Part shown: in pieces, positions 53,550 through 64,000 of the stretch
Layout of the letters: each line of letters starts with the position of its first letter
How positions within the stretch are numbered: position 1 is the first letter of the stretch
DNA from: Methylotuvimicrobium alcaliphilum 20Z
GTDB lineage: Bacteria; Pseudomonadota; Gammaproteobacteria; Methylococcales; Methylomonadaceae
Length of the DNA: 64,000 bases
Assembly (NCBI RefSeq): GCF_000968535.2
Contig: NC_016112.1
Span: 1,736,001-1,800,000, forward strand
Direction: 5' to 3'
Notes under the pieces: model-generated
What the model was told of the DNA's origin: nothing
The model's database searches: none
The model's input: only the letters and a program-made list of their open reading frames with translations
Position numbers and translations under genes: made by a program

Positions 53550-54380
53550 GTGTCTAGACTTTCGATAGCTTGTAGGATGTGCACCGCGTACCTGTTGCAA
53601 TGGATAAGACGCCCCGAATCTTTTCTACGATCGCTATTTTGGCTGCCGATACTGTTGATGTCCGCTTGCACGACACCGGTCAAGGACGGGACGTTCCGGA
53701 TCATGTATCAAAGCGGTATGGATCCGGTTTTCGCGATTCCTTCGGTTCGGGAACGCATGATCTATTTGGCGCAACAGGAATGGTCTCTATTCGGACGTCC
53801 CATAGCCGACTATAACGGCGGCGAACCCGAATTGATCTTTCCAGAAGACAAGGAGGCGACGCACGAAACCCAAGCACCTTATTTCTCCCGAGTCATTCTT
53901 TATTGGTACAACGCGACGCATTTGCCTTTATTAAATCACGAAGGTGAAGTTCGGCCCTGGTCGGCTGCCTTTATTGTTTGGTTGGCGCGTAGCGCCGGTG
54001 TGTCGGAACAGGATTTGCCTTCGACCGTGTTGCATTGGGACTATATCCAACATTCTCTGTCGGCCGGAAAAAATGCCCGCTTTATCGCCCGCGACGCGCA
54101 TTTTTTCAGTCCTAAACCCGGCGATTTGTTATGCGCGCCGCGCAGCGAAGTTTTTACGCAACAAGTCCAGTCATTCAAACAATTACGCAGAGGGCCTTAT
54201 CATTGCGATTTGGTCGTGGCCAAAAACCACGATGCGCTCGAAGTGATCGGCGGCAATGTGCTCGATGCGGTGTCGATGACGCGCGTGGAATTGGATGGCA
54301 AAGGCATTGTAAAGCCGACCCAAGAGCGCCCTTGGTTGATTGTTTTGGAGCAGAGGGAAGGTAATAAAGAGGAAAGGTGA
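53550..54380 (+). CDS. DUF2272 lipoprotein
   Basis: 276 residues from GTG 53550, chosen for the GGAGGA box about 6 bp upstream. An N-terminal export signal ends in a lipobox (LLMSAC). The body matches DUF2272, a NlpC/P60-like fold: [20 protein letters not shown] and [11 protein letters not shown], with the distal His in YHCDLVVAK. The NlpC/P60 catalytic Cys position appears to be Ser in PWSAAF. Cell-wall-related function is plausible. The 3' end (GAG GAA AGG TGA) merges into a heptanucleotide repeat. Confidence 0.8.
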
Positions 54381-54496
54381 AAGGTGAAAGGTGAAAGGGG
54401 AAAGATGAAAGGGGAAAGATGAAAGGTGAAAGATGAAAGATGAAAGATGAAAGATGAAAGGTGAAAGGTGAAAGGTGAAAGGGGAAAGGGGAAAGA
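54369..54496. repeat. Heptanucleotide tandem repeat (GGTGAAA/GATGAAA/GGGGAAA)n, locus 3
   Basis: About 17-18 units in mixed order, beginning inside the last codons of the DUF2272 gene. An additional unit lies at 54783-54797. The rest of the 54381-54838 gap shows no gene. Confidence 0.85.
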
Positions 54497-59362: not shown

Positions 59363-60727
59363 TCATTTAATCCAGATCGTCTTGGCATTCACAAACTCGC
59401 GAATACCATGATGCGATAACTCACGCCCATAACCGGAACGTTTGATACCACCAAACGGCATCCGCGGATCGCTTTTTACTAAGCCGTTCACAAACGCCGC
59501 ACCGCATTGCAGCTGTCGCGCCACGCGTTCACCGCGCGCGTTGCTTTGCGTCCAGACACTGCCGCCAAGGCCGAAGTCGCTGCTGTTGGCAATAGACACT
59601 GCATCATCTTCATTCTTGGCGCGAATCACGATTGCGACCGGGCCGAACAGTTCTTCGTGCCAGGCACGCATACCGGGTTTAACATGATCAATAATGGAGG
59701 CTTGGTAATAAGCACCACTGCCGGCTTCTGGCGCGCAACCGGTAACAATCTTCGCGCCCGCCTCGATACTTTCAATCACCTGCTTATGTAATTCATCGCG
59801 CAGGTCATGGCGCGCCATCGGTGCCAGGGTGGTATCTACACTCATTGGGTCACCAGTACGCAGATCTTCCACAGCGGCTTTGAATTTTTCCAGAAATGCA
59901 TCGGCAATCGCATCCACCACGATAAACCGCTTGGCCGCGATACAGCTCTGGCCACCATTCATATAACGCGAAGTCACACCCTGCTTTACCGCCAGTTCCA
60001 GATCGGCGTCGTCCAGCACGATAAAGGCATCCGACCCGCCCAGTTCCAGAACGGATTTTTTAATATTCGCGCCGGCTGCCTCCGCCACCGATTTTCCGGC
60101 CGGCTCACTGCCGGTCAAGGTCACAGCCTTGACTCGTGGATCATCGATCACACCACGTACCTGAACTGATCCGATCATCAGTGTCGTGAAGACCCCTACG
60201 GGAAAGCCGGCCTCCTTAAACACAGATTCAATTGCCTGCGCACACTGCGGCACATTCGAGGCGTGTTTCAATAATCCGGTATTACCCGCCACCAGTGCCG
60301 GAGCCGCAAAGCGAAAGACCTGCCAGAATGGGAAGTTCCATGGCATCACCGCTAGGATGATCCCCAACGGCTGATAAGCGACCAGACTCTTGGCGGCGTC
60401 GGTTTCGATATATTCATCTTCGAGGAACCCCGGCCCGTGTTCGGCATAGTACTCACATACCCAGGCACACTTCTCGATCTCGCCGCGCGATTCTTTGATC
60501 AGCTTACCCATTTCCTGGGTGATGATCGTGGCCAACTCTTCCTGACGTGTCCGCAAGACCTCCGCTGCTTTATACATCAGCTCACAACGTTTTTTGATCG
60601 GCGTGTCGGCCCACGGCCCGGCTGCCAGTTCGGCAACATCCATTGCCTTGGACAACCGGGACGCTTCCCAGTTGTCCAAGGTTAGTATAGTGCTACCGTC
60701 AACGGGGTTGATTGCATGAAAGGCCAT
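59363..60727 (-). CDS. NAD(P)-dependent succinate-semialdehyde dehydrogenase-like aldehyde dehydrogenase
   Basis: 454 residues. ALDH motifs: [38 protein letters not shown], the catalytic Glu in [19 protein letters not shown], and the catalytic Cys in [16 protein letters not shown]. The overall length and [10 protein letters not shown]-like segment match the short succinate-semialdehyde dehydrogenase group (Sad/GabD1 type). It would oxidise succinate semialdehyde to succinate, a route around a weak 2-oxoglutarate dehydrogenase. A GGGAGC box lies 8 bp before the ATG. The preference for succinate semialdehyde is inferred from similarity only. Confidence 0.9.
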
Positions 60728-60921: not shown

Positions 60922-61311
60922 TTACAAGGCGAAATTCAAAAGAGTCAGTCCGACCCATACGAAACCGATCGTTGTTATCGCAAAACTGACAATCGTGTAG
61001 GCTTTCCAAATGGTTTTATCCCAAAAATTGGGGTCGAAAGCCGCGATAACGAAAACGCCGGGATTGGTCATGCCGCCGATGACGACAAGCCAGCAGGCCA
61101 AAACTGGCAGCGGAATTTTTACCGCATAAAAAGCCAAACAAAACAATGCCATTAGTACAAAATCGACATGGGCCCTGATCATTGTTTTATAGTCTTTTAG
61201 AAAGCCGCCGTCTATGCCTTCGATAGGAAACCATTTGGCAAAGGTCATGAGCCATGCCGAGGCCAATACCGCGAAAATCATCAACACGGCTCCGATTAAT
61301 AATATTTCCAT
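60922..61311 (-). CDS. Small four-helix membrane protein, unknown function
   Basis: 129 residues with four predicted helices: LLIGAVLMIFAVLASAWLMT, FVLMALFCLAFYAVKIPLPV, VLACWLVVIGGMTNPGVFVI and YTIVSFAITTIGFVWVGLTL. No signature motif is recognised; the size and helix count recall MAPEG-like or DUF4149-like proteins but I cannot assign it. It lies between lpd and the aldehyde dehydrogenase genes on the same strand. Confidence 0.75.
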   Translation of the reverse strand: MEILLIGAVLMIFAVLASAWLMTFAKWFPIEGIDGGFLKDYKTMIRAHVDFVLMALFCLAFYAVKIPLPVLACWLVVIGGMTNPGVFVIAAFDPNFWDKTIWKAYTIVSFAITTIGFVWVGLTLLNFAL

Positions 61312-61889: not shown

Positions 61890-63326
61890 TCAAGGAAGAT
61901 GCAAGGACCGGTTTTCTATTGCTAGTGCCGCCTCATGCAAGACTTCCGAAATGGTGGGGTGGGCATGTATGGTTCTGGCTAAATCTTCGCCGCTCGCGGA
62001 GAATTCCATCGCTAGTACCGCTTCGGCAATTAATTCGGAAGCATTGGCTCCGATGATATGGATGCCTAAAATTAAATCGGTTTCCGCATGCGTGATTATT
62101 TTGACCAAACCTTCGGTTTTGTCGATCGACTCGGCACGGCCATTCGATTTCAATGTAAATGTACCGGTCCGATATTTTTGTCCAATGGCTTGTAGGGCTT
62201 GTTCGGTTTGTCCGACCCAGGCGATTTCAGGGTCTGTATAGATGACGCTCGGCATGATGTTATAGTTGATCGGATTGTGCCGGTTGGCGATGTGTTCGGC
62301 GACGAATACGCCTTCTTCTAAGCCTTTATGCGCCAGCATCGGCCCGAGTAAGGTTAAATCGCCGATCGCATAAACGCCGGGAACCGTCGTGCAGCAGTTT
62401 TCGTCGACATGGATATATCCGTTTTCATCCAAAAGCAGTTCGGCTTCGGGGGCTGCAATATTTTCCGAATTAGGCTTTCTACCCGTGGCCACGATCAGTT
62501 TGTCGAGTCGTAGCGTATGGCTGCCTTCCGGATTTTGATAGTCGACGACGACCTTGTTATTAGTTTTTTTAGCCGAGGTGACGCGAGCTCCCAAACGTAA
62601 ATCCAAGCCTTGTTCGGAATAGATTTTATAGGCTTCCGCAGCAATTTGGTGATCGACGATTGGTAAAAAAGATTCTTGCGCTTCTAACAAAATTACTTCG
62701 GAACCCAAGCGATTCCATATTCCAGCAAGCTCTAGGCCGATGACGCCCGACCCGATGATTCCGAGTCTTTTGGGGATGCTGGTCATATTCAGTGCATAAG
62801 TCGTATCGACGATAAACTCGTTGTCGATCGGCGCGCACGGTAAATCGATGGAGGTGGAGCCGGTCGCTAGTATTATATTGGGGGCATTGAGTTTGATTGG
62901 TTTGGCACCGTCGGCGGGTGTCACGCTGACTTGGTCGGCGTTGAGCAGCTTTCCTTGCCCATGATAATAGTTGATTTTTTTTTCGGCGAAAACATTAAGG
63001 ATCTGCCGGCTTAATCGCGCTATCTTTTCATTTTTGCGATCTATCATCTTCGGCAAATCCAGTTTTATGTTCTCGACCGATATGCCATGATCGGCAAGCC
63101 CATGCCGCATTAAGTCGTAGATCTTGGCCGACTCGAGCAGCGCCATCGAGGAAACGCAACCGGCGTTGATATAAGTCCCGCCCAGACTTGGATCGCCATT
63201 AATATTGGTCCAATGATCAACACAGGCTGTTTTCAATCCTAATTGGGCGGCGCGGATCGCGGCGACATAGCCGGCAGGGCCGGCACCGACGACAATAACA
63301 TCATAAGTTGATTCGGGTTTTGACAT
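61890..63326 (-). CDS. lpd: Dihydrolipoamide dehydrogenase homologue lacking one redox cysteine
   Basis: 478 residues, normal length for the E3 component. FAD site: DVIVVGAGPAGYVAAIRAAQ; NAD site: RLGIIGSGVIGLELAGIWNR; second FAD motif GVYAIGDLTLLGPMLAHKGL; the dimer-interface His-Glu is in HAHPTISEVLHEAALA. The redox-active motif, normally GGTCLNVGCIPSK, reads GGTYINAGCVSSM: Tyr52 replaces the first Cys (codon at 63171-63173), Cys57 remains, and Pro-Ser-Lys becomes Ser-Ser-Met. A disulfide cannot form, so classical lipoamide oxidation is unlikely. It lies 13 bp after odhB on the same strand, as in an odhAB-lpd operon. Confidence 0.92.
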   Translation of the reverse strand: MSKPESTYDVIVVGAGPAGYVAAIRAAQLGLKTACVDHWTNINGDPSLGGTYINAGCVSSMALLESAKIYDLMRHGLADHGISVENIKLDLPKMIDRKNEKIARLSRQILNVFAEKKINYYHGQGKLLNADQVSVTPADGAKPIKLNAPNIILATGSTSIDLPCAPIDNEFIVDTTYALNMTSIPKRLGIIGSGVIGLELAGIWNRLGSEVILLEAQESFLPIVDHQIAAEAYKIYSEQGLDLRLGARVTSAKKTNNKVVVDYQNPEGSHTLRLDKLIVATGRKPNSENIAAPEAELLLDENGYIHVDENCCTTVPGVYAIGDLTLLGPMLAHKGLEEGVFVAEHIANRHNPINYNIMPSVIYTDPEIAWVGQTEQALQAIGQKYRTGTFTLKSNGRAESIDKTEGLVKIITHAETDLILGIHIIGANASELIAEAVLAMEFSASGEDLARTIHAHPTISEVLHEAALAIENRSLHLP

Positions 63327-63339
63327 GACAGTGAACCGT

Positions 63340-64000
63340 TTATATGTTTAGCAATAAGTGCGCTGGAGATTCCAGGCACTCTTTGATGGTGACCAAAAAT
63401 TGCACCGCTTCGCGGCCGTCGACCAAGCGATGATCGTAAGATAAAGCAAGATACATGATTGGTCTAACGACTATTTGTCCATTTTCAACCACGGGCCGCT
63501 CCTTGATTGCATGCATGCCTAAGATCGCGCATTGCGGCGGATTTAATATCGGAGTCGATAGCATCGAGCCGAAAATGCCGCCATTGGTTATTGTAAACGT
63601 ACCGCCGGTCAGGTCTTCAAAACTAATGTTGCCTTCTTTGGCTTTTTTGCCGAAATTGGCGATATTTTTTTCGATGCCGGCAAAGTCTAATTGATCGGCA
63701 TCGCGAAGAACCGGCACAATCAATCCGCGCGGTGTACTGACCGCAATGCCGATATCGTAGTAGCCGTGATAGATAATGTCGTTACCGTCAATTGAGGCAT
63801 TAATAGTCGGGAATTTTTTCAAGGCCTCGATCGATGCTTTGACGAAAAAAGACATGAAGCCCAATTTGATATTGTGCGTTTGCTCGAAGCGGTTTTTATA
63901 TTGGTTTCGTAAATCCATCACATGATGCATGTCGACTTCGTTGAAAGTCGTTAGCATCGCGGCGTTTTGTTGCGCTTGCAGCAAGCGTTCGGCAATCTTG
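63340..64000 (-). CDS. odhB: 2-oxoglutarate dehydrogenase E2 (dihydrolipoyl succinyltransferase), 5' part outside window
   Basis: The frame runs off the window end at 64000; the visible 220 residues are the C-terminal catalytic domain ([20 protein letters not shown] onward). The catalytic HxxxD motif is present in [18 protein letters not shown], and [20 protein letters not shown] and [20 protein letters not shown] are signatures of succinyltransferases. It transfers succinyl groups to CoA in the 2-oxoglutarate dehydrogenase complex. The companion E3-like gene downstream is degenerate in its disulfide. Confidence 0.94.

Follow-up and report, generated by a model that had tools for sequence, protein, structure and literature searches.

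The missing 2-oxoglutarate dehydrogenase (ODH) activity of gammaproteobacterial methanotrophs is a long-standing question. Two reports state that the activity has never been demonstrated in these bacteria despite the presence of the genes (PMC5023229) and that it was absent in vitro in M. capsulatus, again despite the genes (PMC8527097). We analysed a window of 64,000 nucleotides from Methylotuvimicrobium alcaliphilum 20Z, in which the gene after odhB would count as an 'lpd' for a working E3 (dihydrolipoyl dehydrogenase), yet its redox centre is gone and the gene is under selection. This also matters for the metabolic modelling of methanotrophs that serve as production strains.

An E3 homologue encoded directly after odhB

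The gene at 61890..63326 on the minus strand encodes a disulfide-less odh-type E3 homologue of 478 amino acids, a pseudo-E3 candidate identified by its open reading frame, family match and fold. The frame starts 13 nt past odhB (63340..64000, minus strand), which encodes E2, is cut by the window end and itself follows odhA; the full odhB gene encodes lipoyl, E3-binding and catalytic domains. With this gap and a score of 474 bits against the TIGR01350 dihydrolipoyl dehydrogenase model, above the curated HMM cut-off of 408.8, the claim of an earlier note on this DNA that an E3 homologue lies directly after odhB was borne out, and the protein is full-length. An AlphaFold2 model (37 sequences, mean pLDDT 85.6) had the fold of the Pseudomonas LpdG proteins, the nearest solved relatives (48-49% identity, TM-score 0.95), and its low-confidence stretches at residues 53-56 and 451-459 were within the former active site. 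Near-identical proteins (97-98% identity) were present in the records of M. buryatense 5G and Methylomicrobium sp. wino1.

The FAD dinucleotide-binding motif GAGPAG (residues 14-19; 63270..63287, minus strand) was intact at G14xG16xxG19, as was G322D323, and the NAD-binding motif GSGVIG (residues 192-197; 62736..62753, minus strand) was intact at G192xG194xxG197. The motif glycines were kept in 107-108 of 108 clade sequences, and Gly 192, 194 and 197 in all 108; the earlier note had read both motifs as kept. A promoter and terminator scan was uninformative. Elsewhere in the window, positions 54372-54495 hold 17.7 tandem copies of the heptamer GAAAGGT.

Loss of the redox residues

Residues 49-61 of the 20Z protein read GGTYINAGCVSSM, in which CxxxxC has become YxxxxC and the active-site Lys has become Met. 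The codon for Tyr52, TAT at 63171..63173 (minus strand), replaces that of the first redox Cys, and the codon for Met61 (63144..63146, minus strand) replaces that of the invariant Lys of CxPSK; both substitutions were as the earlier note had described them. Its statement that the redox disulfide is missing stands for the first Cys, while Cys57, the second Cys of the former disulfide (63156..63158, minus strand), is retained in 20Z.

The clade counts were made on 108 sequences, which are distinct but not independent lineages, and leave out two divergent members of family f6 (L199 and L200) with Ser at position 52 and the Lys kept. Position 52 was Y in 59, H in 32 and F in 17 of the 108, and position 61 was M in 45, I in 37, L in 17 and V in 9, against C and K at these positions in 128 of 128 canonical E3s. 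The first Cys was therefore absent from all 108 and also from L199 and L200. The second Cys position was more variable, with C in 84, S in 12, G in 11 and D in 1. The former catalytic dyad of His456 and Glu461 (61944..61961, minus strand) is present in 20Z, as had been noted, but the His base was kept in only 86 and the Glu in 82 of the 108 clade sequences, the His being lost in 22 and the Glu replaced by another residue in 25. Arg took the place of His456 in 17 sequences, all with His at 52, and the 14 other His52 sequences retained His456; this pairing may have been inherited from a single shared ancestor.

The residues make a loss of dithiol chemistry close to certain, and we did not class the protein as a dihydrolipoyl dehydrogenase because two residues that define the enzyme, the Cys and the Lys, are absent. 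Since TIGR01350 was matched by 37 of 37 members scanned, annotation is likely to call pseudo-E3 a working E3. That it is one, using Cys57 alone or a different pair of thiols, would agree with these family matches, the 20Z score above cut-off and Cys57 in 84 of 108 sequences, and yet we consider it very improbable. The 24 sequences without Cys57 have no cysteine common to all of them, the Lys is replaced throughout the 108, and the His and Glu losses come on top of this. Single-Cys mutants of E. coli Lpd are reported to be inactive with lipoamide. Nor was a substitute disulfide found, in that no clade-wide cysteine pair exists in the 108 sequences beyond those of canonical E3s; Cys164 was enriched (75 of 108, compared with 6 of 128 canonical) without a constant partner.

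Distribution across Methylococcales

An orthologue was found in 81 of 151 Methylococcales genomes by a hand count of matches at E of 1e-120 or better, with the motif read in all 81. Sixty-one lacked the first Cys and 20 were canonical, the latter with the motif GGTCLNVGCIPSK and belonging to the sister families f7 (18 genomes), which is presumably Cycloclasticus, and f8 (2 genomes). In the best 80 of 411 candidates among named relatives the first Cys was absent from 80 of 80, and their titles were those of Methylococcales, methanotrophs or unclassified gammaproteobacterial MAGs. Outside the order both cysteines were present in 108 of 108 class sequences read (28 best and 80 others). The class sample comprised 274 genomes, 143 of them with a match at E <= 1e-98, and 35 of these matches were left out of the motif count as 32 ranked between the two sets and 3 did not cover the motif. 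Orthologues that all carry the disulfide would have pointed to a sequencing error; with only 20 of 81 canonical, such an error is ruled out by the lineage-wide loss.

The RuMP gene hps had no match in the 20 canonical genomes and was present in 59 of the 61 disulfide-less genomes, the exceptions being G118 and G001. The pmoA family PF02461 failed to separate the two sets because many of the canonical-family genomes also match, more weakly.

The orthologue was absent in 70 of the 151 genomes, some of them incomplete assemblies. These were genus g4, every f3 and f4 member sampled, the majority of f6 and a small number from other groups. Genus g4 may be Methylomonas, which is only a guess because two MAGs of that name (L029 and L072) carry the disulfide-less gene. 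The ODH genes themselves were widespread, with odhA in 148 and odhB in 144 of the 151 genomes, and were kept in 67 and 64, respectively, of the 70 genomes without the orthologue. Exactly one other match at E <= 1e-60 was present in 64 of these 70, and the only motif read among these, GGVCLNVGCIPSK in G060, is that of a canonical Lpd. A search of 19 odhA/odhB stretches without an adjoining gene, two of which (L218 and L219) are from genomes carrying the gene elsewhere, found no E3 remnant at E <= 0.01.

Single origin and purifying selection

The disulfide-less sequences formed one clade adjoining the canonical E3s of f7 and f8, with an SH-aLRT of 88, below 95, on the joining branch. Clade support was 100% bootstrap and 97% SH-aLRT with the motif and His/Glu columns removed. 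The second tree contained 90 rows, 41 from the clade, after removal of a duplicate and of three long-branch rows that had been in the first tree. Loss of the first Cys is best read from these trees as a single event, and the association with hps would therefore reflect one lineage split rather than repeated changes.

The ratio dN/dS was 0.033-0.115 in 14 of 16 within-clade pairs with finite dS, several of which had dS above 1. These values were similar to those of odhB, mostly higher than those of odhA, and compare with 0.026-0.043 for four canonical pairs. The pseudo-E3 gene is under purifying selection, if somewhat less constrained than the canonical E3 genes. One clade, many genera and purifying selection together give firm support to the earlier view of a long-standing divergence.

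Conservation shift to the dimer and docking block

When 25-residue windows were ordered by column entropy, the most conserved one in the clade (rank 1 of 454, 0.27 bits) was that of residues 431-455 (61962..62036, minus strand), the dimer and E2-docking block. The rank of this block was 118 of 453 among 34 canonical sequences matched for divergence (0.63 mean pairwise identity, 0.65 in the clade), 159 of 452 among the 80 far class sequences and 66 of 454 among the 20 sister-family sequences. The redox-motif window moved in the opposite direction, to rank 319 of 454 in the clade versus 49, 47 and 28 in the matched, far class and sister-family sets. Among seven hand-chosen diverged members the block ranked first in six and third in one, with 84-92% identity in the block versus 44-57% overall. 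The members L198 (G100), L199 (G034) and L200 (G018) were only 44-45% identical to the 20Z protein overall and 84-88% within the block, which ranked first, and their redox motif was altered.

A motif window that falls so far in rank, like the absence of the gene from 70 genomes, could be what a decaying relic of no use to the cell leaves behind. This reading is barely credible, being contradicted by the measured purifying selection (dN/dS 0.03-0.12), by long open frames in 61 genomes and by the existence of one long-lived clade.

The human mutations D444, I445, R447 and P453, named in PDB titles, map into the 431-455 block. We take this numbering to correspond, and the block to be where the E2/E3BP binding domain contacts the dimer face, as presumably seen in 1zy8 and 2f5z. 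The place where selection now acts suggests that pseudo-E3 likely docks on OdhB. As the block doubles as the dimer interface, dimerisation by itself could account for its conservation.

OdhA, OdhB and the gene neighbourhood

OdhA had the expected domains and the motifs of its catalytic region. Lipoyl, E3-binding and catalytic domains were found by Pfam in all three OdhB proteins examined, from 20Z, a genome without the gene and a canonical genome. A pattern for the E3-binding domain was matched by OdhB in 99 of 103 clade loci, in 18 of 18 stretches without the gene beside odhB and in 39 of 46 canonical loci. The four clade misses were two frames cut by contig ends and two with a KKRRLTK variant, and the seven canonical misses were one cut frame and six variant spellings. 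A lost E3-binding domain in OdhB, considered as an alternative lesion, was ruled out because a reading of the sequences, the pattern and Pfam on the three proteins all show the domain to be kept.

With the docking domain kept in OdhB and the docking/dimer block the top conserved window of pseudo-E3, this protein could have a structural role only, filling the docking site on OdhB and stabilising the E2 core, with no part in sensing or regulation. We regard this as unlikely since the NAD motif, with its three glycines invariant in 108 of 108 sequences, would be needless for a filler.

Of the 103 clade loci with odhB in the stretch, 96 have the pseudo-E3 match within 100 nt after odhB on the same strand and 7 have it at 188-405 nt by match ends; 5 of 108 stretches were without odhB. 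The gene was far from odhAB in at least one genome, G142, and on a different contig in the f6 genomes G018 and G034. In the f4 genome G011, odhA and odhB (L209, L210) were themselves approximately 1.4 Mb apart on the chromosome.

Two further genes were located 0.6-1.2 kb downstream of pseudo-E3 on the same strand. One, at 59363-60727 (minus strand), resembles succinate-semialdehyde dehydrogenase (SSADH), with a best family match of 562 bits, below the cut-off of 730, and the other, at 60922-61311 (minus strand), encodes a 129-amino-acid protein with no Pfam match. The SSADH-like neighbour may link ODH to a semialdehyde route. As a general functional link it was rejected, since close matches beside the gene were confined to Methylotuvimicrobium and its near relatives in a search where 75 of 108 clade loci span the 3 kb downstream.

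Other E3-type proteins in 20Z

The earlier note had proposed a search for another lpd, and one was found in the form of a canonical Lpd (L002) in an aceE-aceF-lpd run, the pyruvate dehydrogenase (PDH) operon, with gene names taken from a look at the sequence. The next three relatives of pseudo-E3 in the genome (L002, L003 and L004) all have both Cys. L003, a MerA-like domain in a 716-amino-acid protein, and L004, which is glutathione-reductase-like, were both named by motif. No second odh-type E3 was present among the matches listed for this genome, and with these other relatives surveyed the PDH Lpd is likely the only working E3. A CRISPR-like array was observed beside the PDH operon (L147:821-2154). 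Its repeats are 37 bases long, or 36 in four of the copies, and lie at a spacing of 69-73 bases; a single block, made up of two repeat-spacer units, is duplicated.

A proposed role in ODH

The clade-wide loss of redox residues with its apparent single origin, the purifying selection, the kept nucleotide motifs, the shift of conservation to the docking/dimer block, the intact E1 and E2 genes and the canonical PDH Lpd are all read from sequence. They lead us to an explanation that we give an even chance of being correct, in which an E2-docked pseudo-E3 that does not oxidise dihydrolipoamide competes with the PDH Lpd and so limits or switches ODH. The protein would descend from an E3 encoded with odhAB, would retain the fold, FAD/NAD(H) binding and the E3 dimer, and would most likely still be docked on the E3-binding domain of OdhB. 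Electron transfer from dihydrolipoamide to FAD would be lost because the interchange cysteine is now aromatic and the active-site lysine aliphatic. Lipoyl-E2 would then be turned over in the cell only by the canonical Lpd of the PDH operon, and rivalry between this Lpd and pseudo-E3 for the OdhB docking site would limit or switch ODH. We infer cofactor binding, the lack of lipoamide activity, OdhB docking and competition; regulation is put forward as a proposal. Among the roles suggested in the earlier note, a structural or regulatory E3 fits best, since conservation is seen in the nucleotide motifs and in the E2/dimer block and is missing from the active site; the docking and regulatory parts of that role remain predicted.

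The invariant NAD motif argues for an NAD(H)-responsive protein, which could be a sensor or a flavin oxidoreductase with another acceptor. For the sensor we tentatively suggest, while thinking it on balance unlikely, that an NADH-sensing pseudo-E3 at the E3 place of ODH switches the TCA cycle of gammaproteobacterial methanotrophs post-transcriptionally between a complete form on methane and an open form on methanol. If this were true, an E1-E2 complex with E3 excluded may leak 2-oxoglutarate into the succinic-semialdehyde route, and the disarmed E3 would help to account, at the molecular level, for the 'missing' ODH activity that is linked with obligate methanotrophy.

ODH physiology in methanotrophs

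Pseudo-E3 may help to explain why ODH is hard to detect in methanotrophs. In extracts of strain 20ZR (PMC5802761), the pyruvate dehydrogenase activity was 120 nmol/min/mg on methane and 290 on methanol, and succinate-semialdehyde dehydrogenase is listed at 80; 2-oxoglutarate dehydrogenase is given as N.D., which we take as not detected because the assay is described. M. buryatense, which carries the pseudo-E3 gene (L011), is reported from 13C work to have a complete oxidative TCA cycle on methane (Fu 2017, cited in PMC6456754 and PMC10602362) and an incomplete cycle on methanol with modest transcript changes (PMC6456754). A complete cycle with only ODH at the 2-oxoglutarate node has been argued for Methylomonas sp. 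DH-1 (PMC6373157), and this strain, if g4-like and without pseudo-E3, would fit an ODH that uses the PDH Lpd without a competitor.

The suggestion that the altered E3 may cause a weak ODH agrees with the 20ZR result, and the M. buryatense and M. capsulatus reports weigh against it. M. capsulatus seems to be the kind of methanotroph without the pseudo-E3 gene. Since odhAB is retained where the gene is missing, and since M. capsulatus is reported to show no ODH activity in vitro, pseudo-E3 is not needed for the phenotype.

Comparison with known systems

A search of titles and opening abstracts in the open full-text literature, with subscription journals largely outside it, found no description of a disulfide-less odh E3 in methanotrophs, and an open literature search by 20Z locus tags for the gene found nothing. 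The closest known system is LpdG of the ODH complex (Pseudomonas 5u8v and 5tr3, Azotobacter 3lad), at 47-49% identity and a Foldseek TM-score of 0.94-0.95. The LpdG gene is located after sucB/odhB, as is that of pseudo-E3, and the two proteins are alike in their FAD, NAD and dimer regions; unlike LpdG, pseudo-E3 has lost the redox disulfide, through a change of Cys to Tyr, as well as the Lys of the active site.

Three other families were compared by their models, and pseudo-E3 scored below the cut-off of each. M. tuberculosis LpdA (Rv3303c, 1xdi; NF005883, quinone dehydrogenase) is an E3-fold flavoprotein without the CxxxxC pair and is not known to be linked to an ODH operon; pseudo-E3 reached 258.2 bits against its cut-off of 479. 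The soluble transhydrogenase SthA/UdhA (Si-specific NAD(P)+ transhydrogenase, NF003585), likewise an E3-fold flavoprotein, also lacks one redox Cys, the other one compared with pseudo-E3, and keeps the Lys; the score was 291.6 bits against 465. For mercury(II) reductase (TIGR02053) it was 301.8 bits against 454.45, with YxxxxC in place of CxxxxC.

Such relatives raise the prospect of a redox flavoprotein with a new function, passing electrons from NADH through FAD to a quinone, O2 or another acceptor. It would act as a diaphorase or as a quinone reductase and may do so in an ODH-docked state. LpdA offers a disulfide-less precedent with NAD(P)H chemistry, and Cys mutants of E. coli Lpd are reported to have enhanced diaphorase-type activity. 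The strictly retained FAD and NAD(H) motifs agree with such a function, and the newly fixed aromatic residue at 52 and aliphatic residue at 61 suggest a remodelled flavin pocket. We nevertheless hold it to be somewhat doubtful, as scores for the quinone dehydrogenase and transhydrogenase families fall far below their cut-offs, the old active-site residues Cys57, His456 and Glu461 vary in a manner unlike a new catalytic centre, and the strongest conservation is in the docking/dimer block.

An E2-docked, competing pseudo-E3 has its nearest functional parallels in E3-binding protein (E3BP) and other inert 2-oxoacid dehydrogenase subunits, which are non-catalytic and act through docking. E3BP is an E2 homologue, whereas pseudo-E3 is an E3 homologue and would fill the E3 place itself; control of this enzyme family by a conserved pseudo-E3, encoded within the operon of a 2-oxoacid dehydrogenase, would be of a new kind.
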